Source: Artocarpus heterophyllus (lineage: Eukaryota; Streptophyta; Magnoliopsida; Rosales; Moraceae). Taken from it: a stretch of DNA of 64,000 nt. Made by a program: the position numbers and the translations under genes. The notes under the pieces were generated by a model that was not told the origin of the DNA, did not search any database, and saw nothing but the letters and a program-made list of their open reading frames with translations. This document shows positions 1 to 48,022 of this stretch, piece by piece. The stretch lies in NCBI GenBank assembly GCA_025403435.1, contig CM046345.1:10296235-10360234 (forward strand). The letters are read 5' to 3'. Position 1 is the stretch's first letter. Each line of letters opens with the position of its first letter.

Positions 1-907
1 GGATTCATGAACTTTTCAGATAAAGCCACACAAATAATATGGTATATCTCTATCCATATTTAATTCATGGTTATATGTTAGATGAAGCATTTGCATAATT
101 CTCCCTTCTCAGTTTTAAACATGCACATCAGATCATTTAAATGGTAGCTAATCATTTAAAAGCATTAAACATAATAACAAATAACTCACATGAATAAAAT
201 CAATTATGGTGCATAAATATGAAATTCACATCGTCATGATTAGGCTACATCATAGCCCTAACTAAGAAAATTAAAACATAATTGAAAAAGAAAATAAAAA
301 CTAAAAATTTAATTGAATCAAACATTAAGAGAGCAAGAAATTTTGTCATCAATATCTCACTTCTTACTCCGGATTGCTTGACGGCTCCTAAGAAAAAATA
401 AACAGCGCTCTAGAAAATAAGAAAAACCTAGCCTCTAAGACTATTACATCGTTGTCTATTTATACTACTCTTAAGATAACAAAACCCTTGTTTCACGTCC
501 AAAAATCGTGGTTCAGAATCACCCTTGGTGCCACGGCCCTTCTTTCCAAGCGCTGCAGCGCTTCTTTTCTGTTTTTTTCTTCTTTTCCGCCATAGCGCCG
601 CGGCGCTCCTTTCCCAGCGCCGCGGCACTGAGTTCCTACCAAAATGCTTTGCTCAGACTTTCCTTGGGCGCCGCGACGCTTTTGCTCTGCCCACAAGGTC
701 CAGGTCCAAGTTCGTGCTTGATTTGCAATTTTTCTCCAATTTCTTGTGCTCGTGCTCCCTTTTGTTTTCTTTTCTTTCTTTCTTCAACCTACATCAATAA
801 AAGATACTTTCATGAAAAAGTTGGATGTTTTATGTAATTTTTCTGAAGAACATAGTATTATTTGCTAACTAAAAGTGGCCAAATAACTCTCTAAACTAGA
901 GTTATCA
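1..907 (-). repeat. 3' LTR of the Athila element (partial)
   Basis: This matches 12573-13486 almost base for base. Its inner edge at 907 is GTTATCA on the plus strand, which is the TGATAAC start of the LTR in element orientation. About 430 bases of the LTR lie outside the window. A TATA box (CTATTTATA at 456-464, minus strand) and four GC-rich 14-bp dyads (549-680) sit at the same places as in the other LTR. Confidence 0.9.
549..680 (-). promoter_or_regulatory. GC-rich dyad array upstream of the LTR TATA box
   Basis: Four 14-bp dyads of the form AGCGCCGCGGCGCT start at 549, 594, 616 and 667. The arms are 6 bp with a 2-bp centre. The array lies about 85 bp upstream of the minus-strand TATA box at 456-464, in what should be U3. 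The first copy is AGCGCTGCAGCGCT, a perfect palindrome. Function is inferred only from position and symmetry. Confidence 0.55.
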
Positions 908-2461: not shown

Positions 2462-3529
2462 TCAAGGCTCAGGGTGATCAGAAAAATGCGGTGGAGGGCG
2501 AAGTTGAGATTCATCCATGCCCAAGTGTCGAGCAATTGCCCGCGTCATGGCAATATTATATTCTAGGCCCAATTCCAAAAGACGCAAGTGATCACTGATT
2601 GGTAACTCAGGGGCAGGTACAGCAGGTGGTTGAGCTATAGGAGTGACTTGTTCGAGGTGAGAGGGTTGGCTCGAGGCTGAGGCACCAGTGTCCTGCCGAA
2701 ACGGAGGGCGTACTTCTTGGTCTTGGAAACTTCCCATGAACTTTCTATTAATGATTTTCATTGGTTGTAATAATTCTTCCTCTTGGTCGAATGGGACTCC
2801 GGCGTCGATACATAGTCGTGTGATGAGGGAAGAGTGACTTAAACCACCAGTCGTGGAACCCATAGCAGTTCTCAGAATACTGTCTTGGATTACTTTTCCC
2901 ACATCGATAGTTTTACCCGTAACAATGGCAAACAACAAGGCAGCTCTGTCCTTGGTAACATCAGAAAAATGCATTACAGGCATTAATTTAGATGCAATAA
3001 AATACAACCAAGCTTTGTACTTCCTGTTTACTGCGGAGGAGGGAAACGACACCGCTTCGCCTCCCCGTGTTAATTTCCACGTGGTGCCTGGAGTAGCTAT
3101 TGTGCCAAGAACTTCCTCAAAATCTAAATGTTCACTTAGGTATTTATAATAATCATCATTATCGATATTTCAGAGCCCATAATACCTTTTAATGGTTATT
3201 TTATCAAAACGAACCATCTTACCGCGTACACTTACCTAGAGGTTAGCGTGCTCTAGAACGTTAGCATAAAATTCCCAGACAAGTGGGACTACAGCCGCCT
3301 CGGGTTGCTCAAGAAATTTTCTCCATCCTCTTTGCATAACCATATTAAAAAAGACTGTAGAAAAACCATCACTAAAGTATAAACCCCGTTCCGGTACTAC
3401 AGTTTTCTTAACAATAGCATTGTTATGTCTTTTTCTCGCGGCCTCACTCACAAAACGGGTATATGGGGTGGATGATGAGGCTGTAGTTCGTGTGCGCTTA
3501 GAAGCCATTTTTTTTTTGGTGGCACACAC
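2462..3529 (-). pseudogene. Downstream ORF of the Athila element (env-position ORF, broken)
   Basis: Two open segments, 3529-3236 (97 codons) and 3052-2462 (196 codons), lie between integrase and the 3' LTR and appear to be halves of one reading frame. Stops and a frame change between 3236 and 3052 separate them. The first half carries a basic N-terminus (MASKRTRTT) and the pattern W-x-x-F-x-x-x-P ... FYAN. This resembles the 'putative plant transposon protein' domain often found after integrase in Athila-like elements. The second half is followed by a Pro/Gln/Ser-rich tail. I see no signal peptide or membrane segment, so an envelope role is not supported by the sequence; the position is that of the env-like ORF of some Athila elements. 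Confidence 0.6.
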
Positions 3530-4383
3530 GCTTAAAGACTAAACACTCAACACAAAGTATTGTTCTCTACAACTGCATAGAGGGTATCCAACACTGTCAA
3601 GATTTCACTTACCAAAGACCACCTATGGTAAAATCTAACTATGAATTATGAAAAAAAAACCTAAAAAGTTCAAATTTCAGAAAAAATTACACAAATAGAA
3701 AATAATAAAACAAAATAAAATAAAAATAACAAAAATTAAAAAAAATCAAAGATATGGAAAGGAGATAACTTACTTGAAGAGAAAGACGAACAGAAGAGAG
3801 AAGGCAGCCACAACATTGGAGGATGGCAAAGTTTTCTAGAGAGAGAGGAGAAGAAGAAGTGGGAGAGAGGAGTTTAGTTTAGAGAGAGAAAGTGAATGGG
3901 TGAGAATGAGGGAAAGAAAGGTGGGTGGTTATGTTTAAAGGCCTTTTTTTTCGAAATCACGCAAACAGCGCCGCGACGCTGGAATTCCAGCGCTGCGGCG
4001 CTAGTGTTCTGCCTTCCTTTTTTTTTTTTGTGGCGCCATGGCGCTGGTGTTATAGCGCTGTGGCGCTTTACTTCTGCCAACGAAGATTTTTCTGCTCATC
4101 CAAAACAGCGTCGCGGCGCTCTAAATTGAGGGCTGTGGCGCTTGGATTCTGCCCAAACCAAAAAAACTCAATTCACTCAGCGATTTTTTTCTGCATGCTC
4201 CCTGACTTCAACACCTGCAAAACAAGATCGACACTTGACAAACAAAAATAACCTGAATATTTATTTATTTATTATTATTTTATTTTATTTTATTATTATT
4301 TTTTGACATGATAAATAGGGAAATGCTTGGGTTGCCTCCCAAGATGCGCTTGCTTTATTGTCTTCAGCCAGATTGTCTCAATG
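3530..4383 (-). other. Noncoding spacer between integrase and the downstream ORF
   Basis: This 850-bp stretch holds a purine-rich tract (3750-3900), a second GC-rich dyad array (3967-4142) and an AT-rich simple tract (4260-4310). I see no gene in it. On the element strand it would lie in the leader of a subgenomic or spliced message for the downstream ORF, but no splice signal decides this. Confidence 0.5.
3967..4142. repeat. Internal GC-rich 14-bp dyad array of the Athila element
   Basis: Copies of the LTR dyad start at 3967, 3989, 4032, 4053, 4107 and about 4129. Examples are AGCGCCGCGACGCT and AGCGCTGTGGCGCT. Distances are 22, 43, 21, 54 and 22 bp, so several are one or two steps of about 21.5 bp. 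The sequence between dyads is unrelated from gap to gap, which argues against a simple tandem repeat. Confidence 0.7.
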
Positions 4384-12136: not shown

Positions 12137-13034
12137 AAATTTGTTCGGTAAAATTCACTAACGCAAGTGCACGCTATCGATCAAGTAATACAATAGTGAG
12201 TAAGAGTATTGTCTCACAGGGACTATTATATAATAATCTAACTATGTACTAAAGTTGGATTGACTCTAAGGTTTATCTCGCTGATCATATGAAGTTGTGA
12301 TTGAATAAGCTACTGAACTAAAGTACTAAATTAAGAATAAAAATTGCAATTAATTTTAAGAGATACTTCAATAAGACAAGGCGTTAAGGCATTTGATTTC
12401 ACCATAATCACTAGATATGAATTTCGTAAAATTATGCAACCCAATTAACAATACACATGTGATGACAAAAATTCCTAAATTATTTACTATCCTATCTCTA
12501 GGTATAGCAAACCTACTCAGTTTATTAACTCACTATATCTCTATGTGAATTTAAATAAATCAGAATGCATTAGGATTCATGAACTTTCCAGATAAAGCCA
12601 CACAAATAATATAGTATATCTCTATCCATATTTAATTCATGGTTATATGTTAGATGAAGCATTTGCATAATTCTCCCTTCTCAGTTTTAAACATGCACAT
12701 CAGATCATTTAAATGGTAGCTAATCATTTAAAAGCATTAAACATAATAACAAATAACTCACATGAATAAAATCAATTATGGTGCATAAATATGAAATTCA
12801 CATCGTCATGATTAGGCTACATCATAGCCCTAACTAAGAAAATTAGAACATAATTGAAAAAGAAATAAAAACTGAAAATTTAATTGAATCAAACATTAAG
12901 AGTTAAGAGAGCAAGAAAATTCTGTCACCAATCTCAAACTTCTTACTCCGGATTGCTTGACGGCTCCTAAGAAAAAATAAACAGCGCTCTGGAAAATAAG
13001 AAAAACCTAGCCTCTAAGACTATTACATCGTTGT

Positions 13035-13043
13035 CTATTTATA
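13035..13043 (-). promoter_or_regulatory. TATA box of the Athila 5' LTR
   Basis: The minus strand reads TATAAATAG. It is conserved in both LTRs and placed so that transcription would run through the rest of the LTR into gag. Confidence 0.6.
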
Positions 13044-13127
13044 CTGCTCTTAAGGTAACAAAACCCTTGTTTCACATCTAAAAATCGTGGTTAAGAATCA
13101 CCCTTGGTGCCGCGACCCTTCTTTCCA

Positions 13128-13259
13128 AGCGCTGCAGCGCTTCTTTTCTGTTTTTTTCTTCTTTTCCGCCATAGCGTCGCGGCGCTCCTTTCCTAGCGCC
13201 GCGGCGCTGAGTTCCTGGCAAAATGCTCCGCTCAGACTTTCCTTGGGCGCCGCGGCGCT
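13128..13259 (-). promoter_or_regulatory. GC-rich dyad array in U3 of the Athila 5' LTR
   Basis: Four dyads start at 13128, 13173, 13195 and 13246 with the same 45, 22 and 51 bp offsets as in the left LTR. AGCGCCGCGGCGCT at 13195-13208 is a perfect 14-bp palindrome. Some copies differ between the two LTRs by transitions, yet the symmetry is largely kept. Confidence 0.55.
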
Positions 13260-13486
13260 TTTGCTCTGCCTACAAGGTCTAGGTCCAAGTCCGTGCTTGA
13301 TTTGCAATGTTTCTCCAATTTCTTGTGCTCGTGCTCCCTTTTGTTTTCTTTTCTTTCTTTCTTCAACCTACATCAATAAAAGATACTTTCATGAAAAAGT
13401 TGGATGTTTTATGTAATTTTTCTCAAGAACATAGTATTATTTGCTAACTAAAAGTGGCCAAATAACTCTCTAAACTAGAGTTATCA

Positions 13487-15482: not shown

Positions 15483-16377
15483 TTATACAACAGGCTTTTC
15501 AGATTTGATATTTTTCAGGTGAACTTCTAAGGCAGGAGCAATGGAGCTTTCTTTGTACTTGTACCACCTAGCACATACCAAAAAATAGGCAAAATTCACT
15601 GCACCCATTGCAGCAATCAAGTAATAAAAGTAGTCCAATTTCCCTTTGTTAAGATCATTGTCCAGCCAATCTCCCATTGAAGAGCCAGAAGTCAGGTTGT
15701 GAACTATTGACACCAAAAATCCACTAAAGTAGCTTGACAAGGCCATGCCAAGGAACGAGAAAGATCCACCAATGCTTCTCATGTTCTCCGGAAATTGCTT
15801 GTAGTAGAACTCAACGTGTCCAATGACGGAAAATCCTTCAGATAGTCCTATAAGTACCAACTGGGGCACAAACCAAAATCCCGAAAGCGAAGAAATCGCC
15901 CCTCTTCTTGGTAGAATTCCTATTGGCTTTGTGAGGGCCAAACTTCTTCTCTTTTCTTCAACCAAGCCAGATAACAACATTGCCAATATGCCAAGGACCA
16001 TTCCAACACCTATCCTTTGTAGGATTGTGATGCCGCTGTCTATCTTGGTGACTTTTCTGAGGGCGGGGACTAGAAGGCGGTCGTAGATCGGTATCCAGAT
16101 TGTGAGGGAGATCATGGCGAAGATGGCGTACGAGGCGGCGGGAATCTTGAAGTTGCCAAGACGCCTGTCAGCTTGAAGAGCTTGGAAGACCACATAGTTA
16201 CCTAGTTGTGAAATGGAAACATGGTACAAAATTAAGGAGGCCCATATTGAAATTACTCTTATTAAGCATTTCGCTTCCTCTACTTGCTGCATGCTGCAGA
16301 GTCTCCATGGATTGGCTGCTGATCCGTCTGGATTGATTGTGTCTTCATCCTCAATTATTGCGGCTTTGTCTAGGAAT
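15483..16377 (-). CDS. NPF2-type gene, exon 4 (C-terminal half)
   Basis: The exon begins after the acceptor AAG at 16380-16378 and ends at TAA (15485-15483). It encodes FLDKAAIIED..., the large cytosolic loop end and helices 7-12, including IPIYDR and LNKGKLDYFYYLIAA near the C-terminus. No stop or frameshift is present. The frame joins exon 3 through a split arginine codon (AG|A). Confidence 0.9.
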
Positions 16378-16518
16378 CTTTTATTGAAAAAAACCAAAAA
16401 CAAAAAAAAAAAAGAAAATCAGTTTTCTATCATGAAAAATTAATTAATGGTTCAAATCATGAGCCCGTTAATGGTTTATTTTATGTTGCTTTTAGCTTAT
16501 TCTTTTTAAAAACTACTT

Positions 16519-17743: not shown

Positions 17744-19910
17744 TGTAACGTCCCGAAATTTATTTAACATTAATGTAATGTAAATGGTGAATTAGTGTGC
17801 CATAATTAAAGTTTTAACTTTAATTAGATTATTTGGTTGGATTTTGAATTTTGGTTGTTTTGTTAAACTGATGTATTCAAATGATTTCTCATTTGTTTTA
17901 AAATGATGTTTTGAGTTTTAAAACACAACAATTTGTAAAATGTTAAAAATACCCTGTTTTACAAAACCGTGGGCGGCACATGGTTTTCGCACAGTAAAAC
18001 CGCCCACCGATTTTCTCTATTTATTTTCCTTTCCTCTCTCTCTCTCCTCACTCTCACGAACACTCTCTCTCTCTCTCTTCACTCTCTCATTCGGCAGCCT
18101 CTCTCTCTCTCTCTCAATCTCTCTAAAAATTTTGATTTCCGTTCGAATCCAAGCTTCGGAACAGCAAGGAGGAAGCTCGGGGACGTGATTCGGCGACCGA
18201 GAACGCGGATTGAAGCTTCGATTCGAGGTTAGATTCGAAATTTCTAAACTTTTTCAAAATTTTCGAATTTGTGTGTTTTTGAAATCTAAGCTTGTTTAAG
18301 CTTAGAAAACCGTGGATTTGTGTTAAATGAGCTTAGAACAACTAGAATCTAAACCTAGATTGAAGAAAAACGGATTGGATTCAAGATTTTCATTTTTCTC
18401 CTCTTTTTCTCATTTTCGGATTTTTGAGGATTTCGAGTTCAAATGTTGTTTAAATGATTCCAAATATGTTTTAGAATGTTTTTCTATCAACTATAGTTGT
18501 TTTTCATGCCTGGGATTTGAGAAAAACAGGTTGGAATTCAGATTTGGATTTTGGGGATCGAGAAACCCGTGGCTGGGATTTCTGGATTTTCCCAGTTCGG
18601 CAGGCCGAAGTTCATGTTCGGCAGGCCGGAGTGATGATCGGCAGGCCGGTGTTCTTCCGATCGGCAGGCCGAATCTGGGGAAATGTTCGGCAGGCCGAAC
18701 CTCGTTTCCGGCAGGCCGAACTGTACAGTTCGGCAGGCCGAAGCAGGGTGTCCGGCAGGCCGACCGAGGCATGGAAAATTTTGTGATTTTTACCCGATTT
18801 CACTGTTTTGAACCCTGATTTAAATCCCAACCTTATAGGATGATTTTAATGATACAAATGGCACACTAGGACATCATGAAATGATTTAGTAACATAGAAT
18901 GTCTCAAACTAGATATTGATTGACTTAGTTTGTATCTAGGATCGTTCGTGGTTCCGTGGAGCTAAAGTATAGCGGACCGGGATTGCGGTGTGGGGTACCG
19001 GCACGAGTATTGAGGTAGGACTTCTATCCTATTTCTTTGGTAGCCTGGTTTTGAAATGATTTGGCTTTGAAAATGATTTCTATCAAAATGTTTTCAACGG
19101 TTGTTTGGAAATGATTTTATCGGTTATATTTTTATATACCGTGACATGAAATGAATTTCATAATGAATGTAATTGACAATACTCGGTAATCGGGTTTGAA
19201 TGATAATGATAACAAACACTAAGGCATGATGCCATATCAGAGATCGGGTCGTGTAGCGATCGACCTTGGGGGCAGGTCCCGAAACCCAGCTGGGCCACTA
19301 CGGTGGTGATATCATGGTTTGCCTAGGTAAAAGTAAATTGGTGTTTTGATTTGACGAGTAGACTGTTCTGTGTCAGAACGGTTCTACTCAATTTATTTAT
19401 TTATTTATCTAACGTTTTATTTCTGTATACTCCTGATAATGTTTTGTTTCCTTGCATCGAATTATTTTATAAAACCTAGTCCTACTGAGCCTTTCGCTCA
19501 CGTTTTATTGTTTTAAATTTCCCCCCCCTTCTAGGTGGTTTTCCATATAGGTTTGGAGGAGATTCTTCAGACCGGACTCAGGAGCACTAGGAGAATTTAT
19601 TTACATTCGGTATTATTAATCAAGGCATGTAAGACTTAACCATATTTGTACTTGGGCTGTAATTGTATTTGTGATATTGTCAGATCCATGTGTGTGCACA
19701 AGTTGTGGGTTGTGGAACCCATATTCGCGGTTTTTATTCAATTATTGTTATTTGTTTAATGATTTTAAATTCCTTTATAAAAAAATGTGGTGGAAAAATC
19801 TTCTTAATTTTTATTTAATTTGATTCTTAAACGCCCGATTTTTAATTAAATTCGTTTTTAATTAATCTAAATATTCCGCCACGTCACCTCCCGTACTCCG
19901 GGGCGTGACA
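17744..19910 (+). repeat. 5' LTR of the Ty3 element
   Basis: It begins TGTAACGTCCCG and ends GGGGCGTGACA. A long CT-rich tract (18034-18125) looks like a 5' untranslated leader, and the dyad array lies about 500 bp downstream of it. Overlapping open frames at 17940-18830 are by-products of the CT tract and the dyads. Left and right copies are equal in length. Confidence 0.95.
18596..18764. promoter_or_regulatory. Array of eight 14-bp dyads in the Ty3 5' LTR
   Basis: Dyads of the form TTCGGCAGGCCGAA start at 18596, 18617, 18637, 18660, 18686, 18707, 18729 and 18751. The spacings are 21, 20, 23, 26, 21, 22 and 22 bp. The core CGGCAGGCCG is unchanged in all eight, while the 6-12 bp between dyads is unrelated. 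That pattern fits repeated protein-binding sites on one face of the helix better than a decaying tandem repeat. The role is unknown. Confidence 0.7.
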
Positions 19911-19913
19911 GAA

Positions 19914-19925: not shown

Positions 19926-20015
19926 TCAAGGTTATGAACCTTGGGAATTGTGCACACATAGGTTTGACAATGAAATACATCTGACAGTCCAAATTTTGTT
20001 TTCAGAAGTGAGAGA

Positions 20016-23000
20016 ATGGCACCTAGACGTCATTCGACAGCTGACGCGGAGTTCGGAAATGATGAGGGCCTGATGAGGTCTATGATGGCGGCTTTCCGGC
20101 AGATGGCAGCCAGGGCTAGACCGGAAGACTCCAGTGTTGGTAGTCGGCATGCCTTCTTTAAGGAATTTCGGCGGGCGTCTATTCCGACTTTTGATGGCAA
20201 TGGGGATCCGCAGTTAGCAGAGTATTGGTTGGATTCGATTTTGAAGCATCTTGATACCCTTGGTGTGCCTGAGGAGTATCGTGTAGAGTTTGCGGCGTAT
20301 AAGCTCGAGGGTGGCGCTAACACCTGGTGGAAACAAACTAAGCGTCTGGAGCGCGGTGGCGATATCAGTTGGGACAAGTTCGAGGAGCTGTTCTATGATC
20401 GGTATTTTCCGCAGGGATATAGAGACCAGAAAGCAGCTGAGTTTTATAGATTGCAGCAGGGTGATATGTCAGTTCGGGAGTATGAGGCAAGGTTTAACGA
20501 GTTGGCTAGGTTTGCTCCATCAGCTGTGGCATCGGAGCGTGAGAAATGCATCAAGTTTCAGGAGGGACTCAAGGCTCCTATTCGGCGGCAGTTGGTTGCT
20601 CTACGGCTTAGGAGTTTCGGAGAGCTTGTGTCGTCGGCGATCTCCGTGGAGAATGATTACGTGCAGTATTGTGAAGATCGAGCCAAGGCTTCAGGAGGAC
20701 CGCAGAGGAGTGGCAGGAAGAGCACCAGTAGTCGTCCAACTCCGGGGAAAGGCAAGCAAGGCGGTGCGACCAGTGGTAGCAGCAGTTCGTCTGGCAGCGG
20801 GCGCAGCAATCCCTACAGCTTCCATTGTCATTTCTGTCAGCAGCCCGGACACATCAAGAGGAATTGCCCAATCAGGAGTGCTCGTCTTGGATCGCAGACC
20901 GAGGAGGATGCCAGTCGTTCGTCTCAGCCTCAACTTCAGCCCCTACCTCCACCTCCGCAGTACCCGCAGTTGCAGTATCCGCAGTTTTCTCCTCAGCAAT
21001 TCACATATCCGGCACGGGGACAGCAGCCGCAGTATTTTCAGCGCAGTGTTCCTCAGTATAGAGCTCCGAGTGCAGGTAGTGTGCAGTTGTCTCCATCTCA
21101 GCAGCATCGACCGAGTAATGCAGGACCCAGCAATGTCGGTAGAGGAAAAGGAAAAGCGCCAGTGCAGGTTCATGCGATGGCATCTGGAGGGTCAGATTCT
21201 CAGACCGGTAACGCAGTTGTTGATGGTATGATCTTGGTTTCCAGATCTCTAGCACGCGTTCTATTTGATACCGGTGCATCTCATTCTCTCATTTCGAGTT
21301 CTTTTGTACATGCCTTGGGATTAGAGATAGAAGAGTTTAATGAACCCCTAGCTATAATTTCTCCCTTGGGGCGGGTGTGTGTAAATCATATGTGTAAATC
21401 TTGTAAAATAAAGATTGGGGATGAGATTTTGAAAAGTGATTTGATTATACTCCCCATGAGTTCCTATGATGTGATTCTAGGAATGGACTGGTTGTCCAGG
21501 TATAGTGCAGTTGTGGACTGCCAACTTAGAAAAGTGACCCTAGTGTCTGATAGGGGGACGGTAATCACTTACCAGGGTGGTGGTGATTGGCTAATGAGTG
21601 AGCGTCTCATGAAGTCATGTCTAGGAGGGCGAAGGAATCTAGATTGTTTTGCTTTTCTTGCCAATCTAGATTGCGAGCCCTATGTTTCGAGTAGTAGTGT
21701 AGCGATTCCGGTGGTTGGTGAGTTCGAGGATGTTTTCCCCGACGAGTTGCCAGGATTGCCACCGTATCGGGAAATTGAGTTTGGTATTGAGTTGTTTCCA
21801 GGGACATCACCGATTTCTATGGCACCTTATCGGATGGCGCCGGCAGAAATGAAGGAATTGAGGAAGCAACTTCAGGAGCTTGCTGATAAAGGATATATTC
21901 GGAATAGCACATCTCCGTGGGGAGCACCAGTTTTGTTCGCTAAGAAGCACGATGGGACTCTCAGGTTATGTGTGGATTATCGGCAGCTGAACCGTGTTAC
22001 GGTGAAGAACAAGTATCCTTTGCCTAGGATTGATGAGCTATTTGATCAGTTGGGAGGTTCGCGATACTTCTCGAAGATTGATTTGCGGTCAGGTTATCAT
22101 CAGCTCAGAATCAAGGAAGAGGATATTCCAAAGACAGCTTTTAGGACTCAGTATGGGCACTTCGAGTTTCTGGTTATGTCTTTCGGGTTGACGAATGCTC
22201 CAGCAGCTTTCATGGATCTGATGAACAGGATATTCAGGCCGTATCTGGATCAGTTTGTGATCGTGTTCATCGATGATATTCTTGTGTATTCTAAGACATG
22301 GGAGGAGCATGAGCAGCATCTTCGGATCGTGCTTCAGACTCTGCGGGAGCACCAGTTGTATGCTAAAAGGGAAAAATGTGAGTTCTGGTTGACCGAGGTC
22401 AAATTTCTGGGTCATGTCATTTCGGAGCATGGTATTTCAGTGGATCCGTCCAAGATTGAAGCTATATTGGAGTGGGAACGACCAAGGAATATAGCGGAGA
22501 TTCGCAGCTTCTTAGGTCTTGCTGGTTATTACAGGAAATTTGTAAAGGACTTTTCGAAGATTGCAGCTCCGTTGACGAGGTTGACCAAGAAAAATGTCAG
22601 GTTTGAGTGGGATGAAGACTGTGAGTCTGCTTTTCAGGAATTGAAGAACCGGTTGACTTCAGCTCCAGTGTTGATTATTCCGAGCAGTGACGAGCCGTAT
22701 GAGGTTTATGCTGATGCTTCAGGGCGCGGACTTGGATGCGTGTTGATGCAGCATGGACGTGTGGTTGCGTACGGATCGAGACAGCTACGCCCTCACGAGC
22801 GGAATTATCCTACTCACGATTTAGAGCTTGCGGCAGTGATCTACGCGCTGAAGATTTGGAGATGTTACTTGTATGGAGCATCGTTTCAGGTCTTCTCCGA
22901 TCACAAGAGTTTGAGGCATTTGTTCACTCAGAGGGATCTCAACTTGAGGCAGCGCAGATGGGTGGAGTACATGGAGGATTATGATTTCGCGTTGCAGTAT

Positions 23001-24608
23001 CATCCCGGGAAAGCTAATGTGGTAGCGGACGCGCTTAGCAGAAAGTCTTCAGGGATTCTCGCTTGTTTGATTTTTGAGGACTGGAGCAGGGATGCGACAG
23101 TGAGTGAGTATCGGCTACAGTATCATGACGACGGTGATCGAGTTTTGTTATATCACGTGAAAGCGACTCCAGCTCTTGTTCGGATGGTGAAGCAAGGTCA
23201 GTGGCAGGATCGACATTTGCAGGGGATTTGGTCGCGGATTCAGAACGGAGAGCAGTTCGAGGAATGGAGCGTGCATGCAGATGGATCGTTGTACTTCCGG
23301 GAGCGTCTTGCAGTTCCAGTTATCGCCGAGGTGACGAAAGCCGTTCTAGATGAAGCTCATAGGTCTCAGTTCGCTATTCATCCGGGGAGCACCAAGATGT
23401 ATCGTGATTTGAAGAGGCACTATTGGTGGAGAGGCATGAAGAAAGATGTTCGAGAGTACGTGGCCAAGTGTTTGACGTGTCTCCAGGTGAAAGCCGAGCA
23501 TCAGAAGCCTGCAGGTCAGCTTCAGCCGCTTCCTATTCCAGGGTGGAAATGGGAGCATGTGACGATGGATTTTCTCACAGGTTTGCCGAGGACGGAGCAG
23601 CGGCATGATGCAGTTTGGGTTGTGGTCGACAGGTTGACGAAATCGGCGCATTTCATTCCGTTTAGGTCGACGTGTTCCAGGAAGATTCTCGGGGAGCTGT
23701 ATATGCAGAACATTGTGAGGTTGCATGGAGTTCCTTTGTCCATCACCTCTGATCGAGACACCAGGTTTAATGCTAAGTACTGGAGGAGTTTTCAGGAGGC
23801 TTTGGGTACGGATTTGAACTTCAGTACGGCGTTTCATCCTCAGACTGATGGGCAGTCTGAGCGGGTTATTCAGGTTCTCGAGGATATGTTGCGTGCTTGT
23901 GCGTTGGACTTCGGCGGGAATTGGAAGCAATGTTTGCATTTGGCGGAGTTCGCGTACAACAACAGTTATCAGGCGAGTATCGGTATGGCACCATTTGAGG
24001 CATTGTATGGGCGACCGTGTCGGTCACCTGTGTGTTGGGCCGAGCCGGAAGATAGAGTTATTCTTGGGCCGGAAGAGATTCGTGATAGCAACGAGAAAGT
24101 CGCGGTGATTCGAGATCGGTTGAGGGCAGCTCAGAGTCGGCAGAAGAGCTACGCGGATAGGAGACGTAGACCCTTAGAGTTCGCGGTTGGAGATTTTGTT
24201 CTCTTGAGGGTGTCACCTCGTAAGGGAACTATGCGGTTCGGGGTGAGTGGAAAGCTCGCGCCGAGGTATATTGGGCCGTTCGAGATCACTCAGCGTGTTG
24301 GTGTGGTCGCTTATCGGCTTGATCTTCCGCCCGAACTTTCTCATGTGCATGATGTGTTTCATGTGTCTATGCTTAGGAAGTGTCCACCTGGGCAGGATAA
24401 GATAGTTTCGTTTCGCGATGTGCAGGTTCAGGAGGATACGACGTACGAAGAAGTGCCGATTCAGATCATCGACCGGAAAGTGATTAGCTTGCGTCGTCGT
24501 GAGATACCGTTGGTAAAGGTCGTGTGGCAGCATCACGGGGTTGATGAAGCCACTTGGGAACTAGAATCGAATATGCGGGAATTGTATCCGCATTTGTTTT
24601 GTTTCTAA
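20016..24608 (+). CDS. Ty3 gag-pol polyprotein, 1530 residues, intact
   Basis: The reading frame opens at ATGGCACCTAG, about 90 bp after the primer site, and closes at TAA. Domains in order, with approximate residues: gag (80-190), a Ser/Gly-rich linker, a CCHC knuckle ([14 protein letters not shown], 271-284), a Gln/Pro-rich linker, protease (DTGAS, about 417), reverse transcriptase with FIDDILVYS (about 750), RNase H (from about 890, YADASG), an integrase zinc-binding region and DDE core (1100-1350), and a C-terminal chromodomain-like segment ending [17 protein letters not shown] (about 1500). The length and the lack of stops are those of an active chromovirus polyprotein. It would form the particle, copy the RNA and insert the DNA, with the chromodomain steering insertion. 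Codons are visibly richer in G/C than the flanking DNA. Confidence 0.96.
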
Positions 24609-24656: not shown

Positions 24657-26823
24657 TGTAACGTCCCGAAATTTATTTAACATTAATGTAATGTAAATGG
24701 TGAATTAGTGTGCCATAATTAAAGTTTTAACTTTAATTAGATTATTTGGTTGGATTTTGAATTTTGGTTGTTTTGTTAAACTGATGTATTCAAATGATTT
24801 CTCATTTGTTTTAAAATGATGTTTTGAGTTTTAAAACACAACAATTTGTAAAATGTTAAAAATACCCTGTTTTACAAAACCGTGGGCGGCACATGGTTTT
24901 CGCACAGTAAAACCGCCCACCGATTTTCTCTATTTATTTTCCTTTCCTCTCTCTCTCTCCTCACTCTCACGAACACTCTCTCTCTCTCTCTTCACTCTCT
25001 CATTCGGCAGCCTCTCTCTCTCTCTCTCAATCTCTCTAAAAATTTTGATTTCCGTTCGAATCCAAGCTTCGGAACAGCAAGGAGGAAGCTCGGGGACGTG
25101 ATTCGGCGACCGAGAACGCGGATTGAAGCTTCGATTCGAGGTTAGATTCGAAATTTCTAAACTTTTTCAAAATTTTCGAATTTGTGTGTTTTTGAAATCT
25201 AAGCTTGTTTAAGCTTAGAAAACCGTGGATTTGTGTTAAATGAGCTTAGAACAACTAGAATCTAAACCTAGATTGAAGAAAAACGGATTGGATTCAAGAT
25301 TTTCATTTTTCTCCTCTTTTTCTCATTTTCGGATTTTTGAGGATTTCGAGTTCAAATGTTGTTTAAATGATTCCAAATATGTTTTAGAATGTTTTTCTAT
25401 CAACTATAGTTGTTTTTCATGCCTGGGATTTGAGAAAAACAGGTTGGAATTCAGATTTGGATTTTGGGGATCGAGAAACCCGTGGCTGGGATTTCTGGAT
25501 TTTCCCAGTTCGGCAGGCCGAAGTTCATGTTCGGCAGGCCGGAGTGATGATCGGCAGGCCGGTGTTCTTCCGATCGGCAGGCCGAATCTGGGGAAATGTT
25601 CGGCAGGCCGAACCTCGTTTCCGGCAGGCCGAACTGTACAGTTCGGCAGGCCGAAGCAGGGTGTCCGGCAGGCCGACCGAGGCATGGAAAATTTTGTGAT
25701 TTTTACCCGATTTCACTGTTTTGAACCCTGATTTAAATCCCAACCTTATAGGATGATTTTAATGATACAAATGGCACACTAGGACATCATGAAATGATTT
25801 AGTAACATAGAATGTCTCAAACTAGATATTGATTGACTTAGTTTGTATCTAGGATTGTTCGTGGTTCCGTGGAGCTAACGTATAGCGGACCGGGATTACG
25901 GTGTGGGGTACCGGCACGAGTATTGAGGTAGGACTTCTATCCTATTTCTTTGGTAGCCTGGTTTTGAAATGATTTGGCTTTGAAAATGATTTCTATCAAA
26001 ATGTTTTCAACGGTTGTTTGGAAATGATTTTATCGGTTATATTTTTATATACCGTGACATGAAATGAATTTCATAATGAATGTAATTGACAATACTCGGT
26101 AATCGGGTTTGAATGATAATGATAACAAACACTAAGGCATGATGCCATATCAGAGATCGGGTCGTGTAGCGATCGACCTTGGGGGCAGGTCCCGAAACCC
26201 AGCTGGGCCACTACGGTGGTGATATCATGGTTTGCCTAGGTAAAAGTAAATTGGTGTTTTGATTTGACGAGTAGACTGTTCTGTGTCAGAACGGTTCTAC
26301 TCAATTTATTTATTTATTTATCTAACGTTTTATTTCTGTATACTCCTGATAATGTTTTGTTTCCTTGCATCGAATTATTTTATAAAACCTAGTCCTACTG
26401 AGCCTTTCGCTCACGTTTTATTGTTTTAAATTTCCCCCCCCTTCTAGGTGGTTTTCCATATAGGTTTGGAGGAGATTCTTCAGACCGGACTCAGGAGCAC
26501 TAGGAGAATTTATTTACATTCGGTATTATTAATCAAGGCATGTAAGACTTAACCATATTTGTAATTGGGCTGTAATTGTATTTGTGATATTGTCAGATCC
26601 ATGTGTGTGCACAAGTTGTGGGTTGTGGAACCCATATTCGCGGTTTTTATTCAATTATTGTTATTTGTTTAATGATTTTAAATTCCTTTATAAAAAAATG
26701 TGGTGGAAAAATCTTCTTAATTTTTATTTAATTTGATTCTTAAACGCCCGATTTTTAATTAAATTCGTTTTTAATTAATCTAAATATTCCGCCACGTCAC
26801 CTCCCGTACTCCGGGGCGTGACA
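24657..26823 (+). repeat. 3' LTR of the Ty3 element
   Basis: It is nearly identical to 17744-19910 at a constant offset of 6913 bp, with equal length and four visible substitutions. It ends GTGACA and is followed by the GCACG duplication at 26824-26828. Confidence 0.95.
25509..25677. promoter_or_regulatory. Array of eight 14-bp dyads in the Ty3 3' LTR
   Basis: This is an exact copy, at offset 6913, of the array at 18596-18764. None of the four LTR differences falls inside it. Confidence 0.7.
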
Positions 26824-26907
26824 GCACGCCTCCCCGGTTTTCAACATTTCGCAGGATGGAGGGTGTAGCTTTTCCACTCCTGCTGTTAGTGTGAGAACCA
26901 ACATTCC
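26824..26907 (-). CDS. NPF2-type gene, exon 3 upstream part
   Basis: The exon starts after the acceptor TAG at 26910-26908 with GMLVLTLTAGVEKLHPPSC and runs into the retrotransposon at 26823. The last codons (GAG GCG TGC) overlap the GCACG duplication. On its own it reads through into LTR sequence. Confidence 0.88.
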
Positions 26908-33040: not shown

Positions 33041-33412
33041 GAGTTGGAGGGATGAAGAAGATTGTAGTAACTTTTATGTTGTTTGGTAGGATAAAGAGAG
33101 AGTTGATAGAATAGATTATAGTTATTTGTGAAATTATTATATAATACATTGCTTACTAGTCATTAATTATTTATTTAAAAAGTAAAATAGTCTTGTTAAA
33201 ACTTAAAGTGATGGATTGCTTGGATCCTTCTATTGATAGAAAGATCCAATTTGGTGAGCCATAGGGGAGACCACATCTCGTCCACTTCTCTTCTTTCCCT
33301 CTCCCTTCAACCAAACAAAGGATTTTACATTTCTTCCTATCTCTCACCTTCCACCCTTTTCCCTCTCTCCATCTCTCTCTCCTACCAAACATATTCTTAC
33401 TCATAATAGTTT
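33041..33412. repeat. Possible inverted-repeat element, related to 49520-49737
   Basis: GTTTGGTAGGATAAAGAGAG near 33081 and the reverse complement of the CT-rich right end (GTTTGGTAGGAGAGAGAG) form loose inverted repeats. A related CT-rich block, 'gatggatt...ggatcc...ccctctccctt...ccaaac', recurs at 49540-49735. The limits are not certain. Confidence 0.35.
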
Positions 33413-36400: not shown

Positions 36401-36531
36401 TTAAAGTATGTTTGCATTTATTATGCAAAAAGTTTTAAAGTTCAAGAAAAAGATTTGCAATGAATTTGCAACCGTTATGTTAAAGGTTTATTTGCATATT
36501 GATATGCATAACATTTCTTAAAAGTGTAAGT

Positions 36532-38563
36532 TGTTGGAAACAAAGTGCGCAGCGGAATTTTTTAAAATTTTCATCAGAGTATTTTCCAAAATACAAGTAT
36601 GACATGTTATATGTATAAATTAAACAGATCTTACTAACCTCAGTGTGCCGAAGAACCTCCGCGACCTGTGTAGAGAAGTAACGTTCCAGAAGAGCCTCAA
36701 CCAACTGGTCTTCTTTGCTATTCTCTATCCACAACCGGAGTGAGTGTGGGCTCACACGTACAGCTCTTCCACCGGTGACTCTCCTTCCAACCAATAGAGA
36801 GAACCCAAAGCTAGTGTTCGTGATTTGTGAACAAAAGCTCTCAGGGAGTTTTCAGATGCTCACTAGAAGAGTATCACTCTTAATCTCTCAAATTGATCTG
36901 AGTAAATCATTAGACTCACTCCCTTTTTATACCTATTGGTCCTTGGGGTCAGTCCATATCAGATTAGGTCTCAAAAATCGAAACAGAATCAAGTTCGGAT
37001 CAATATCTGATAAGATACGCGTGAAAAACGCGTAATCTTAGCTGTCGCGGTCGGCATGCCGAACTGTGAGATAGGCAGGCCGAACTGGCCAGTTCGGCAG
37101 GCCGAACTTTCTGATCGGCAGGCCGAACTGCCGAGAAAAAATCTCCGCGAATCTTTTATTTTCCACCCGAGATTCTAAAGGATAAAGTCTCAGTTTTGAT
37201 TCAAATAGCCCAATAGAAAAGATATCTGATCAAAACAAACTCTATCAAGATAATCTCTAAGAAAATAAATCAATTCAAATAATTCTACAAGTTTATCTTG
37301 TTCTAATTGTCCAAAATTAAAACAACCGATAAACAGACAAGAATTATCCGAACGCCATAATTCAACAAGTTCATCTTGAACTAATTTCTTACAAAATTAA
37401 TTCAACCGATAAACAGACATGAATTATTTGATTCTTATAAATTTTAAACCAATCTGATAAATCCGACATAAGTCACCAATTATTGGAAAAACACGCCGTG
37501 TCGTTACAGGATTTTGTGAGCTAGCAAAGGGGACCAAAATGGACCTATAAAGTTCAAGCTCATGATAATTATGAAACCCAATATCCCAGATATACATTTC
37601 ACAATTATCAACTCCAACGCTACTCCACTAAAAGCTTGGAGCTGCACTCTCGAACTTTACAGAATTACGAAGCTCATGTAGCTAAGTCTCCATGACATAT
37701 CATAGTGTATCGCATCCCCATATGATCATCCATAATCGGCTTAAGGACAAGTTCTGTCTTACCTTCCCGATTATTTTTATCTTACGTTCCATTGTCTCAC
37801 CATTAGAAAACTTACCATCCAAAGATAGTATACCATTCGGTTACACCTATGTATCCAAATGGTTGAGCGCTCCAGTTTTCCAATTACAGGACAACGCATA
37901 TAAGAGGATATCATTACTCCTAAAGAGGAGCTATGGATTCCATATCTATGAATAACAAGTCTACGCTATCAAGAGTCATGCCTCCAACGTACCGGCATGC
38001 ATGCCACTATAGAGATGTGGGAGTCACCCATTGGTACATCAAAAGACACAAGTCGAGACAACGGGCCCATTATTCATCTCAGGATTAAGATACAATACAA
38101 ACGACTGTCTAAAGTGAATCGATTTGCCAAGACAGAATTATTAATCCAAATCAATTCACTTTATGTCCCGATCCAACACATCGTCACCTATGACAACGCG
38201 CCAATGTTTCTATTCACGGAGTCCAACTCCGATGGCCAAGACAAACCATCTCCCAAAAGGGATATAGACAACATAACAATCTTTACATGAATAAAGCGCC
38301 CAACTTTATTCCCTCGATTGCGGATCATATATTTTAGACCATCACCTTAAGAGTCGTGTCTACCGCATAATCATCCCATCATATGCCCAACTCTTAAGGT
38401 TTAGACTGACAGTCTCAGACTACTGTTTGCTTATCATACATTCAACGAATATGAACGTAAAGAGGACAATATTTGGTATATATAAATGAATAAATTCTTT
38501 ATTGATAAAAATGTCTCCAAAAACGTATTACATTTTTACTCCTTAGAGCATACATGTCTAACA
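36532..38563 (-). repeat. 3' LTR of the Copia element
   Basis: The plus strand runs TGTTGGAAAC...GTCTAACA. A minus-strand TATA box (CTTTTTATA at 36923-36931) and the dyad array (37050-37127) are present. Open frames in it are duplicated exactly in the other LTR and have no recognisable product. Confidence 0.95.
37050..37127 (-). promoter_or_regulatory. Four 14-bp dyads upstream of the Copia LTR TATA box
   Basis: Dyads start at 37050, 37071, 37093 and 37114 (GTCGGCATGCCGAA, ATAGGCAGGCCGAA, TTCGGCAGGCCGAA, ATCGGCAGGCCGAA). Spacings are 21, 22 and 21 bp. In element orientation the array ends about 119 bp upstream of the TATA box. The core is the same as in the unrelated Ty3 LTR. The same array is at 44704-44781 in the other LTR. 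Confidence 0.7.
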
Positions 38564-38577: not shown

Positions 38578-41500
38578 CTAAGTGAGTAAATACTGCAAAT
38601 TTCGCATCCCCATAGCTTCCACATGCCTTTCGAAGACTCTCCCAGAAAGTGTCTTCGTAAATGGATCAGCTAAATTGTCCTCTGACGCGATCTTGCACAC
38701 CGTGACATGCCCGCTCTCAACGAAGTCCTTTATCACATGATACTTCCGATCAATATGCTTACTCTTCTTGTGAAATCTTGGTTCCTTAGCATTAGCTACC
38801 GCCGCACTGTTATCACAGTACAGTGATACCGCTTTATCCATACCAGGAACTACCTCAAGATCCCCAAGGAACTTGCGGAGCCACACTGCTTCTTTCGAAG
38901 CATCACTAGCCGCCACATACTCGGCCTCCATCGTTGAATCCGAAGTGCAATCTTGCTTCGCACTTCTCCAACTGATGGCACCGCCACCCAGAGTAAACAC
39001 AAACCCTGAAGTCGATTTCCTAGAATCCAGGCAGGATTGAAAATCCGAATCAGTGTATCCTAGAGGAGTTAAATCCTCACCCGAATACACAAGCATATAC
39101 CCTCGAGTCCTTCTCAGGTACTTGAAAATGTGCTTTACCGCAACCCAATGGTTCGGTCCTAGATCCGCCTGAAATCGACTTACAATCCCGACCGCATAGC
39201 TAATATCCGGTCGAGTGCAAAGCATGGCATACATGAGACTACCCACTGCCGAAGCATAAGGCACCTTCTTCATGTATTCTCTTTCTTCATAAGACTTTGG
39301 AGAGTCTTTCTTAGAAAGAGTAATTCCAGACCTAGATGGTTGCCCACCTTTCTTGGAATCCTGCATTGCAAACCTCCTGAGAATTTTATCTATGTAGCCG
39401 GCCTGTGACAAAGCTATCATTTTGTTCTTCCTATCCCGCAAGATCTGGATACCGAGAACAAAATTAGCCTCACCCAAGTCCTTCATGTCAAACTGCTTGG
39501 TCAACCATAATTTGACCGATGACAACGCCCCAATGTCATTGCCAATTAGCAGAATGTCATCTACATAGAGCAGTAGAAAAACCACCTTCTCATCCTTAAT
39601 GTGTTTGTAAACACATGGTTCATCCACATTTTGTGAGAACCCATAAGTCTTGATTACTTGATTAAATCTTATGTTCCAAGAACGAAAAGCCTGCTTAAGT
39701 CCATAAATAGACTTTAGCAGCTTACAAACCTTACCCTCTTGACCCGTGACCTTGAACCCGTCTGGTTGTTCCATATAAATGGACTCATCAAGATATCCAT
39801 TTAGAAAGGCCGTCTTGACATCCATCTGCCAAATCTCATAGTCGAGAGCGGCAACTATGGACAAGAGAATCCGGATGGACTTAAGCATGGCTGCAGGCGA
39901 AAAGGTTTCCTCATAATCGATTCCTTCTTTTTGCGTATAACCCTTAGCTACCAGTCTAGCCTTAAAGGTTTCGACCTTTCCATCCACTCCTCTTTTCCTC
40001 TTGTAGATCCACTTACACCCTATGGGTTTTACCCCTTCGGGAAGATCCACAAGCTCCCAGACCCGATTAGTCTCCATAGACTTCATCTCAATGTTCATGG
40101 CCTCTGTCCAGAGTCTTGAATCAACATCCTCCATAGCTTCTGCGTAAGTATAAGGATCCCTGTCATGTTCATCCGGTTCAGCCAAAAAGACCTCCCCATT
40201 GAACATATACCTTTCAGGTTGACGCCCGATCCTCCCACTACGCCGAAGCCCCTGTGGTTGTTGTTCAGGTTTGTTTGGTTTTTCTACACCGATCGGAATG
40301 GTTTCGTTCGGAACCTCCGGAGTAAACGGATTACCCCTCAACTCCTCAAGCACCACTTTGCTTTGAGGTTTAAAGTCGTTCATGTAACTCTCCTCAAGGA
40401 AAGTTGCATTAGTTGAAACCACGACTTTATTTTCCTTTGGGTTATAAAAATAACCCCCTTTAGTCCCTTTTGGATATCCTACAAACACGCAAACTTCTGA
40501 ACGTGCTTCCAACTTATTCGGATCCTTAAACAGGACATGAGCTGGACATCCCCATATGCGAATATGGTTTAAGGATGTCTTCCGTCTTGTCCACAACTCG
40601 TGAGGAGTTTTAGGGACCGATTTTGAAGGCACATTGTTCAAAAGATAACATGCGGTTTGTAGTGCATATCCCCAAAAGGATAAAGGCAATGATGAATAAC
40701 TCATCATGGACCGAATCATGTCCAACAAAGTCCTATTCCTTCTCTCCGCTACGCCATTCTGCTGCGGAGTGCCCGGCGCAGTCAAATGGGATAAAATCCC
40801 ATTCTCTAACAAGTGTCCCAAGAACTCATCAGAAAGGTATTCCCCACCTCGATCAGATCGAAGTGCCTTTATGGGTCTACCCAATTGCTTTTCCACTTCA
40901 GCCCGAAACTCCCTGAACTTATCATAAGTTTCGCTTTTGTGGTGCATTAGGTACACATACCCATATCTTGAGTAATCGTCAATAAAAGTGACGAAGTACT
41001 CATACCCTCCTCGTGCCCGGATGTTCATCGGTCCGCAAACATCACTATGCACAAGTTCTAGAACCCCTTCGGCCCTATTGCCCTTAGACCCGTATGGTCT
41101 TTTGGTCATTTTACCCTCCAAACAAGACTCACATTGAGGTATAGATTCCACCTTTAAGTGACTTAAAGGTCCATCCCTTACCAACCTTTGAATCCTATTC
41201 AGGTTAATATGGCCAAGGCGCAAATGCCAAAGATAAGTCTTATTAGAGTGAGAAGTTTTAAGTCTTTTTGAGTCATTATCATTTATCTCAGCATTAAGCA
41301 ATAAGTCCATCTTAGGTTTGATAAAATATAGATTATTTTGCATCCATCCAGAACAGATAAAAGATTTGTTTTTACGAATCACCACTTTTTCATTAAAAGA
41401 TACCACGTAGGAGTCTTTAAATAAAGAAGATACAGAAATTAAATTCCTTTTAAATTTAGGAACATAAAAACAATCTCGCAAAATTAAACTCCTATAATTA

Positions 41501-42531: not shown

Positions 42532-42693
42532 TTTCAATCTACAATAAAGAATCATATACCAAACATAAGCAAACATATATAATAATTTAGTAAGATAACA
42601 CAATCATGTAAAATATACAAATGTGTTTATGTGTCAAAACCTTGAAAATATCACAACCTTACAACGATAATTCCCAACTCAGAATTCAACAAG

Positions 42694-43496: not shown

Positions 43497-43679
43497 GTCG
43501 GCAGGCCGATCTAGGTGATCGGTCTGCCGATCATGGTGGTTCGGCCTGCCGAACATGAAGGTTCGGCCTGCCGGCAGAGCACCAAAATTTCTGCCCCACT
43601 GTCGGCCTGCCGGACCGTACGTCCGGCCTGCCGGTCTGTGACCTTCGGCCTGCCGAACTGTGAGGTCCGGCATGCCGAC
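43497..43679. repeat. Eight 14-bp dyads in the Copia leader
   Basis: Dyads start at 43497, 43518, 43540, 43562, 43601, 43622, 43644 and 43666, spaced 21, 22, 22, 39, 21, 22 and 22 bp. Most read TTCGGCCTGCCGAA, the reverse complement of the LTR form. This is a second array within one element, in the opposite sense to its LTR array. Confidence 0.7.
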
Positions 43680-44184: not shown

Positions 44185-44185
44185 T

Positions 44186-46217
44186 TGTTGGAAACAAAGT
44201 GCGCAGCGGAATTTTTTAAAATTTTCATCAGAGTATTTTCCAAAATACAAGTATGACATGTTATATGTATAAATTAAACAGATCTTACTAACCTCAGTGT
44301 GCCGAAGAACCTCCGCGACCTGTGTAGAGAAGTAACGTTCCAGAAGAGCCTCAACCAACTGGTCTTCTTTGCTATTCTCTATCCACAACCGGAGTGAGTG
44401 TGGGCTCACACGTACAGCTCTTCCACCGGTGACTCTCCTTCCAACCAATAGAGAGAACCCAAAGCTAGTGTTCGTGATTTGTGAACAAAAGCTCTCAGGG
44501 AGTTTTCAGATGCTCACTAGAAGAGTATCACTCTTAATCTCTCAAATTGATCTGAGTAAATCATTAGACTCACTCCCTTTTTATACCTATTGGTCCTTGG
44601 GGTCAGTCCATATCAGATTAGGTCTCAAAAATCGAAACAGAATCAAGTTCGGATCAATATCTGATAAGATACGCGTGAAAAACGCGTAATCTTAGCTGTC
44701 GCGGTCGGCATGCCGAACTGTGAGATAGGCAGGCCGAACTGGCCAGTTCGGCAGGCCGAACTTTCTGATCGGCAGGCCGAACTGCCGAGAAAAAATCTCC
44801 GCGAATCTTTTATTTTCCACCCGAGATTCTAAAGGATAAAGTCTCAGTTTTGATTCAAATAGCCCAATAGAAAAGATATCTGATCAAAACAAACTCTATC
44901 AAGATAATCTCTAAGAAAATAAATCAATTCAAATAATTCTACAAGTTTATCTTGTTCTAATTGTCCAAAATTAAAACAACCGATAAACAGACAAGAATTA
45001 TCCGAACGCCATAATTCAACAAGTTCATCTTGAACTAATTTCTTACAAAATTAATTCAACCGATAAACAGACATGAATTATTTGATTCTTATAAATTTTA
45101 AACCAATCTGATAAATCCGACATAAGTCACCAATTATTGGAAAAACACGCCGTGTCGTTACAGGATTTTGTGAGCTAGCAAAGGGGACCAAAATGGACCT
45201 ATAAAGTTCAAGCTCATGATAATTATGAAACCCAATATCCCAGATATACATTTCACAATTATCAACTCCAACGCTACTCCACTAAAAGCTTGGAGCTGCA
45301 CTCTCGAACTTTACAGAATTACGAAGCTCATGTAGCTAAGTCTCCATGACATATCATAGTGTATCGCATCCCCATATGATCATCCATAATCGGCTTAAGG
45401 ACAAGTTCTGTCTTACCTTCCCGATTATTTTTATCTTACGTTCCATTGTCTCACCATTAGAAAACTTACCATCCAAAGATAGTATACCATTCGGTTACAC
45501 CTATGTATCCAAATGGTTGAGCGCTCCAGTTTTCCAATTACAGGACAACGCATATAAGAGGATATCATTACTCCTAAAGAGGAGCTATGGATTCCATATC
45601 TATGAATAACAAGTCTACGCTATCAAGAGTCATGCCTCCAACGTACCGGCATGCATGCCACTATAGAGATGTGGGAGTCACCCATTGGTACATCAAAAGA
45701 CACAAGTCGAGACAACGGGCCCATTATTCATCTCAGGATTAAGATACAATACAAACGACTGTCTAAAGTGAATCGATTTGCCAAGACAGAATTATTAATC
45801 CAAATCAATTCACTTTATGTCCCGATCCAACACATCGTCACCTATGACAACGCGCCAATGTTTCTATTCACGGAGTCCAACTCCGATGGCCAAGACAAAC
45901 CATCTCCCAAAAGGGATATAGACAACATAACAATCTTTACATGAATAAAGCGCCCAACTTTATTCCCTCGATTGCGGATCATATATTTTAGACCATCACC
46001 TTAAGAGTCGTGTCTACCGCATAATCATCCCATCATATGCCCAACTCTTAAGGTTTAGACTGACAGTCTCAGACTACTGTTTGCTTATCATACATTCAAC
46101 GAATATGAACGTAAAGAGGACAATATTTGGTATATATAAATGAATAAATTCTTTATTGATAAAAATGTCTCCAAAAACGTATTACATTTTTACTCCTTAG
46201 AGCATACATGTCTAACA
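44186..46217 (-). repeat. 5' LTR of the Copia element
   Basis: Same length as the left LTR (2032 bp) at a constant offset of 7654 bp, with no difference noticed. The TATA box is at 44577-44585 and the dyad array at 44704-44781. It ends GTCTAACA and is followed by the TAAGT duplication. Confidence 0.95.
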
Positions 46218-47938: not shown

Positions 47939-48022
47939 ATTGGTAGGCCAGACTCCATCAATTGGTAGGCAAGTAAACCAAACTCAACCAACAAGCCGGA
48001 TTCAGCTGCTCGGCAAGCCGAC
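47939..48022. repeat. Decayed 14-bp dyad array in LTR C
   Basis: Four diverged copies start at 47939, 47961, 47987 and 48009, for example ATTGGTAGGCCAGA and CTCGGCAAGCCGAC. The spacing is 22, 26 and 22 bp. Sequence and period match the Ty3 and Copia arrays, but the symmetry is partly lost. Confidence 0.5.

Follow-up and report, generated by a model that had tools for sequence, protein, structure and literature searches.

Arrays of one 14-bp dyad motif, repeated at intervals of about 22 bp, were found in LTR retrotransposons of both the Copia and the Ty3 superfamilies of Artocarpus heterophyllus. The possession of one dyad motif by the two superfamilies is the new observation here, and its nearest known counterpart is the RM boxes of Sireviruses. 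Among the papers listed when the literature was searched for LTR motifs that are shared or palindromic, none reported Copia-Ty3 sharing in its title or at the start of its abstract. In addition, neither TTCGGCAGGCCGAA nor GCGCCTAGGCGC was found in the literature searched, and CGGCAGGCCG does occur in it, none of the matches listed dealing by title with plant retrotransposons.

The sequence analysed consisted of one 64-kb stretch of the 985-Mb assembly, hereafter the window, together with loci from contig C1. Self-comparison, LTR ends and ORFs revealed three LTR elements in the window: a first element of Ty3 type, the Ty3 element C and the Copia element A (Table 1). The domain search identified RVT_2 and Copia gag domains in A and assigned C to Ty3. 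As elements C and A are each bordered by their own target duplication, they are separate insertions. Outside the three LTR elements, a single CTCGGCAAGCCGAC was located at 48009-48022. Pieces of NRT1/PTR family (POT) transporters were present at 15483-16418, 53158-54687 and 62273-62914, the middle one being the longest, and perhaps represent a tandem gene cluster with fragments. For one NPF transporter, the best named of the 120 matches listed (783 in total) came from Trema (76%) and from Humulus, Ulmus and Cannabis (70-71%), with two others closer, which probably indicates a plant of the order Rosales. A 155-bp unit also occurred as two tandem copies of about 98% identity at 57818-58127.

Table 1. 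LTR elements and dyad arrays of the window (positions are those of the window).
Feature	Position	Strand	Details
First Ty3 element, LTR pair	1-907 / 12573-13486	- (element)	95.7% alike
Dialect-2 array, first Ty3 element, left LTR	549..680	-	4 dyads, AGCGCC-NN-GGCGCT type
Dialect-2 array, first Ty3 element, gap between pol (ORF end 4726) and Transposase_32 ORF (3169-2462)	3967..4142	-	6 dyads
Dialect-2 array, first Ty3 element, 5' LTR	13128..13259	-	4 dyads; followed after 84 bp by TATAAATAG near 13043
Ty3 element C, 5' LTR	17744..19911	+	3' copy 24657-26824, identity 99.8%
Ty3 element C, gag-pol ORF	19974-24608	+	domain and ORF analysis
Ty3 element C, target duplication			GCACG, read by eye from LTR ends
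Dialect-1 array, Ty3 element C, 5' LTR	18596..18764	+	8 dyads; intervals 21,20,23,26,21,22,22
Dialect-1 array, Ty3 element C, 3' LTR	25509..25677	+	8 dyads; letter-identical to 5' LTR array
Copia element A, 3' LTR	36531..38563	-	5' copy 44185-46217, 0 mismatches
Copia element A, gag-pol ORF	38578-42603	-	domain and ORF analysis
Copia element A, target duplication			TAAGT, read by eye from LTR ends
Dialect-1 array, Copia element A, 3' LTR	37050..37127	-	4 dyads; intervals 21,22,21; end 118 bp upstream of TATAAAAA
Dialect-1 array, Copia element A, 5' LTR	44704..44781	-	4 dyads; 118 bp upstream of TATAAAAA
Dialect-1 array, Copia element A, leader (5' LTR to gag)	43497..43679	-	8 dyads; intervals 21,22,22,39,21,22,22

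An earlier reading of the window, made from its sequence only, had described dyads of the first type (dialect 1) in the Ty3 LTRs, the Copia LTRs and the Copia leader. A sequence scan located all of these arrays at the positions that it gave. The core, which it had called invariant in the Ty3 array, was CGGCAGGCCG in all eight dyads of the C LTR. The spacing, said to be nearly always 20-23 bp, had this value in 15 of the 17 dialect-1 intervals of the window when each array was counted once, the remaining two being of 26 and 39 bp. The LTR array of Copia A contains one ATAGGC-AG-GCCGAA unit and one unit with an AT centre, and the dyad centres of its leader array, read on the + strand, are CT (six), AG (one) and AT (one). 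The second kind of dyad array (dialect 2), carried by the first of the window's three LTR elements, had not been mentioned in that reading.

The abundance of dialect 1 in the genome exceeds chance by far. TTCGGCNNGCCGAA (TTCGGC-NN-GCCGAA) was present at 33,063 sites, against 27 for the reversed control AAGCCGNNCGGCTT, which is also a palindrome and has the same letters, and the exact 14-mer TTCGGCAGGCCGAA gave 29,070 sites (14,626 + 14,444), against 1 for the reversed word; as counts of repeats over a whole genome, these numbers are lower bounds. This strong genome-wide enrichment supports the sequence-only reading. A census of all-G/C 4-base arms separated by a 2-bp gap, covering 264 kb (the window and 20 evenly spaced stretches), gave 73 occurrences of CGGC, 12 of CGCC and at most 2 of every other arm.

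For identifying the carriers, 68 loci of contig C1 were studied: 20 evenly spaced 10-kb stretches, eight loci from listed hits and, within the initial 4 Mb of the contig, 40 short stretches surrounding listed hits. Hence 48 of the 68 dialect-1 loci, as well as all ten dialect-2 array loci described below, were chosen via listed hits on one contig. At least two neighbouring dyads appeared in seven of the 20 evenly spaced stretches (L010, L013, L016, L020, L023, L024 and L027). Throughout the 68 loci and the window, all dialect-1 arrays of at least two dyads belonged to three LTR families, one Copia (A) and two Ty3 (B and C). Older relatives of family C were found at L016, L024 and L038, and family B was recognised as Ty3 by pol pieces 46-61% identical to the C pol. 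Family A has arrays in the LTR and in the leader, B has two within one LTR of about 3.1 kb, and C has one per LTR. A leader position was considered for the second B array and rejected, and both arrays were placed in one long LTR, because the block of about 3.1 kb that holds them precedes gag in L010 and follows pol in L013. The AG centres are oppositely directed between the two arrays of a family in both A and B, and element A has this centre in both orientations relative to the gene.

After masking of the dyads, comparison of modules across families gave no match at E < 0.01 (lowest E, 0.048), in agreement with the earlier statement that the Ty3 and Copia arrays have no other sequence in common. 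Whole units have been gained or lost between copies at L023, L063, L031 and L053 and the adjoining bases are nearly constant, so that the array is a fast-changing island within the LTR. Finally, when IMG/VR was scanned for pairs of adjacent dyads, 28 contigs were obtained; 26 of these had no array above two, and the other two corresponded to an 8-bp minisatellite (L078) and a three-unit tandem repeat (L081).

The profile of the dialect-1 site was built with 375 sites of 71 arrays, called by motif likeness and with L002 and L003 omitted as they overlap L001. Each position of the core CGGC-AG-GCCG is constant at 90-99%. The degeneracy of the arms is mirrored, position 2 being T or C and position 13 A or G; C and G are nearly absent from positions 1 and 14, and G is preferred immediately before the site and C after it. 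No covariation between half-sites was detected (136 of 290 complementary versus 128 expected, p = 0.12; 201 versus 203, p = 0.70). This mirrored degeneracy in halves that do not covary fits the independent half-sites of a DNA-binding dimer. Turned one way, the centre is AG in 243 of 290 sites and mostly AA, AT or CG in the rest, and such an asymmetric centre is odd for a purely symmetric site.

Concerning spacing, 160 of the 180 dialect-1 intervals of up to 31 bp, taken from 49 distinct interval vectors, measured 20-23 bp, and the peak at 21-22 bp anticipated in the earlier reading is present in the sampled arrays. The helical phasing that it had also claimed was not supported for the longer gaps of this dialect, as no helical period was found among 32 gaps of up to the 60-bp limit when periods of 9.5-12 bp were tried (R = 0.18 at 10.5 bp). 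Within most arrays the spacers are unlike and the dyads alike, the exceptions that repeat whole units being L023, L027 and L031. The dyad arrays are therefore different from a simple minisatellite, whose units are alike over their full length.

The excess of CGCC-NN-GGCG, the sole all-G/C arm besides CGGC with an excess in the census, led to the dialect-2 arrays in L027 (7581-7835) and in the first element of the window. Dialect 2 is AGCGCC-NN-GGCGCT and has the 6-2-6 layout of dialect 1 and a spacing of 21-22 bp. Its exact arms occur at 5,213 sites of the genome, versus 3 for the reversed pattern. Ten array loci obtained from listed hits (L097-L106), L027 and the window were compared, several of them being copies of one family. 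Intervals of up to 31 bp were of 21 or 22 bp in 62 of 64 cases, and of the 26 intervals above this length, counted up to 60 bp and contributed by few families, 24 were of 40-45 or 51-53 bp. The centres were TA in 58 and GC in 33 of 99 sites, and the outer positions covaried weakly (61 complementary versus 49.9 expected, p = 0.01). Both superfamilies carry this dialect as well, in a classification that leaves out L098, L103, L104 and L106: the Copia carriers are L107 and L108, about 34% alike to the A pol and joined by position to arrays L100 and L099, and the Ty3 carriers are the first element of the window and L109, 66% alike to the pol of that element and joined by position to L102. In the region 3100-4150 of the window, within the first element, the internal dialect-2 array is succeeded in coding direction by a pyrimidine-rich stretch, which may be an internal promoter of the 3' ORF.

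The arrays were also examined for their placement relative to TATA boxes. Dialect-2 arrays end 64-108 bp ahead of TATAAA in nine of the ten loci (the exception is L102), and the 5' LTR array of the window's first element falls, at 84 bp, within this range. Among 20 copies of the Copia A LTR array, 16 end 115-120 bp ahead of TATAA(A/G)A; re-inspection of the remaining four gave TATAA words at 117, 118, 106 and 121 bp, which places all 20 at 106-121 bp. No canonical TATA box was found near the Ty3 C array, and in family B TATA-like words stand ahead of the first array in two of three copies, without a placing such as that of Copia A. As a consequence, placement at the promoter is not universal.

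Comparison of 50 aligned copies of five modules (12, 10, 12, 10 and 6) indicated that the CpGs of the dyads are better kept than those of the flanks and that the spacers change fastest. Mismatch at CpG bases was 0.037-0.110 in dyads and 0.140-0.318 in flanks, and mismatch in spacers was 1.2 to 4 times that of flanks; 37 of these 50 copies owe their selection to a dyad hit, and a bias of the aligner towards dyads is possible. A stricter set was limited to the window and the evenly spaced stretches (13 sequences), and its figures are pooled ordered pairs that are non-independent and for which no significance is claimed. In this set, CpG differences were 36/426 in dyads, 179/783 in flanks and 25/52 in spacers, and non-CpG differences were 172/1278, 2587/15948 and 285/1043, respectively. 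The earlier proposal that the dyads are selected, the gaps between them being unrelated, agrees with the behaviour of the CpGs. It does not agree with that of the Copia A LTR, where all dyad bases taken together mismatch more than the flanks (0.159 versus 0.100 in the 50-copy set). The same counter-trend was seen at non-CpG bases of the 13-sequence set, both in the A leader (0.104 in dyads versus 0.040 in flanks) and in the A LTR (0.258 versus 0.161).

From these sequence features we predict that each array is a homotypic cluster of 14-bp binding sites, with two-fold symmetry, for a host dimer, and that these sites probably raise the transcription of the retrotransposon that carries them. Host proteins would bind each site as dimers, with one subunit on each half-site of a 6-bp arm on either side of the 2-bp centre, and the 22-bp period would set neighbouring dimers two helical turns apart on one face of the DNA. 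Binding would lead to activation, that is, to more transcription of whichever retrotransposon carries the array, and arrays located in the leader or towards the end of the LTR would behave as downstream enhancers. The factor would be encoded by the host, since gag-pol and frames overlapping it are the only ORFs of at least 200 aa in elements A and C (introns left aside), which makes a factor encoded by the element itself unlikely. A literature search on LOB-domain sites offered nothing related to the dyads. With respect to their origin, the arrays probably expanded through duplications of a unit of about 22 bp, as most dialect-1 centres point in the same direction within an array, and the spacers would then have diverged while the dyads were kept. 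Taken as a whole, the earlier interpretation, in which a host dimeric factor or a silencing or anti-silencing system had come to be used by several element families, is partly supported.

An alternative, to which we give a low probability, is that the arrays act as RNA, adjacent dyads pairing into long hairpins in transcripts of the LTR or leader for RNA dimerisation or packaging or triggering host small RNAs. The predicted folds of the three window arrays were strong (z = -5.8, -9.0 and -3.6, with none of 200 shuffles equally stable), and palindromes of maize Sireviruses have been described, in the parts of the sources used here, as small-RNA hotspots (PMC5311732; PMC10760457). Moreover, the weak covariation in the outer positions of dialect 2 is what a hairpin would also give. 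However, any dyad array would be expected to fold comparably, and hairpins are accordingly kept as an alternative of lower weight. The halves of dialect-1 dyads do not covary and hairpins do not require a spacing of about 22 bp. Additionally, the A LTR array and most dialect-2 arrays lie upstream of TATA and would be included in the element RNA only at its 3' end.

A similarly improbable alternative is a mobile or exchanged minisatellite that recombination or template switching carried from one family to another and that persists without function. The single main orientation of centres within arrays and the gain and loss of units between copies (L023, L063) would agree with it, as would the layout of four dyads, a gap and four dyads, which is seen in the leader of A, in the C LTR and in the second of the B arrays. 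Visual inspection of the last two shows, besides this layout, the common string ATG[ATCGGC..GCCGG.]GTTC.....[ACCGGC; a transfer of arrays between families was considered and homology is not claimed. Spacers were compared with shuffles in 56 comparisons of 200 shuffles each, for which the lowest attainable p is 0.005. Three reached it, namely two within-family controls and the A leader against the A LTR. The best values between families were 0.010 (A leader against a B array) and 0.015 (twice), and none of them survives the number of tests. The third within-family control, A LTR against L031, gave p = 0.124, which reflects the rapid turnover of spacers; with one of three such controls failing, an old exchange of arrays between families is possible. 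Against a functionless minisatellite are also the dissimilar flanks of the different families, the better preservation of CpGs in dyads than in flanks and the existence of a second dialect with identical geometry, which suggests that what is kept is the geometry and not one sequence.

VANC proteins recognise VANDAL elements of Arabidopsis through anti-silencing motifs, and VANDALs are DNA transposons that encode their own factor and carry clusters of short motifs in noncoding DNA. The dyad arrays resemble them in being short motif clusters in the noncoding DNA of the elements, perhaps with one reader factor, and in addition the sites are CpG-rich and the dialect-1 centre is CHG; nevertheless, a silencing or anti-silencing factor coded by a mobile element in this manner is very improbable, given that no ORF of at least 200 aa for such a factor was seen in A or C and that the motif is common to different superfamilies.

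The dyad arrays can be better compared with the RM boxes of Sireviruses. These are palindromic, have a CGG-CCG core, number at least eight per element and form clusters in the LTR shortly upstream of a conserved TATA, with further internal clusters ahead of an extra 3' gene (PMC2829016). In the part of that source considered here, the motifs of its Table 3 are mostly element-specific, all carriers are Copia of one genus, and no common binding factor is named for the boxes (Bousios et al., 2010; PMC2829016). As far as described there, the dyads resemble RM boxes in being symmetric, in their copy number, in the CGG-CCG core found in dialect 1 and in the cluster before an extra 3' gene; the placing relative to TATA is that of RM boxes in the A LTR and in nine of ten dialect-2 loci plus the window element, and was not seen for B or C. 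Palindromes with this core and at least eight units per element were found in A (4+8+4) and in C (8+8), although one unit of the A LTR lacks the first CGG, and dialect 2 is without the CGG-CCG core where its centre is TA. Unlike the RM boxes of that account, dialect 1 is common to one Copia and two Ty3 families, dialect 2 is common to another Copia family and Ty3 elements, and one of the arrays sits in a 5' leader (Copia A). With regard to the features that define Sireviruses, element A has a Ty1/Copia polymerase and B and C, as Ty3, do not; multiple polypurine tracts are absent from A, in which about 14 bp separate the ORF stop (38578) from the start of the 3' LTR (38563). Since A lacks this feature and both B and C fall outside Copia, the dyad arrays would work in the manner of RM boxes but not as a trait of Sireviruses.

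A palindrome abundant in two superfamilies of a single genome has also been described in maize, where CACCGGAC...GTCCGGTG is frequent in Copia and Helitron and, in Copia, is discussed as having a cis-regulatory role (PMC10760457). In the portion of that source used, the maize case differs from the present one in its sequence and in having a DNA transposon as its other carrier, and no sharing with Ty3 is described (PMC10760457). The sharing with Helitron could be explained by nesting or capture.

The control of plant retrotransposons is usually considered family by family. A more tentative extension of the host-dimer reading, rather doubtful as yet, is that a family of host dimeric proteins with one geometry (6-2-6 and 22 bp) and at least two specificities may be a common switch for unrelated Copia and Ty3 elements, which would then form regulatory guilds according to motif dialect instead of descent. 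Were a single host factor to drive unrelated families by way of one repeated site, their bursts of activity would be coupled across families, and a single protein could be put to the test. The occurrence of two dialects with one geometry also reopens the question of the Sirevirus boxes, that is, whether one protein family may be behind all of them.
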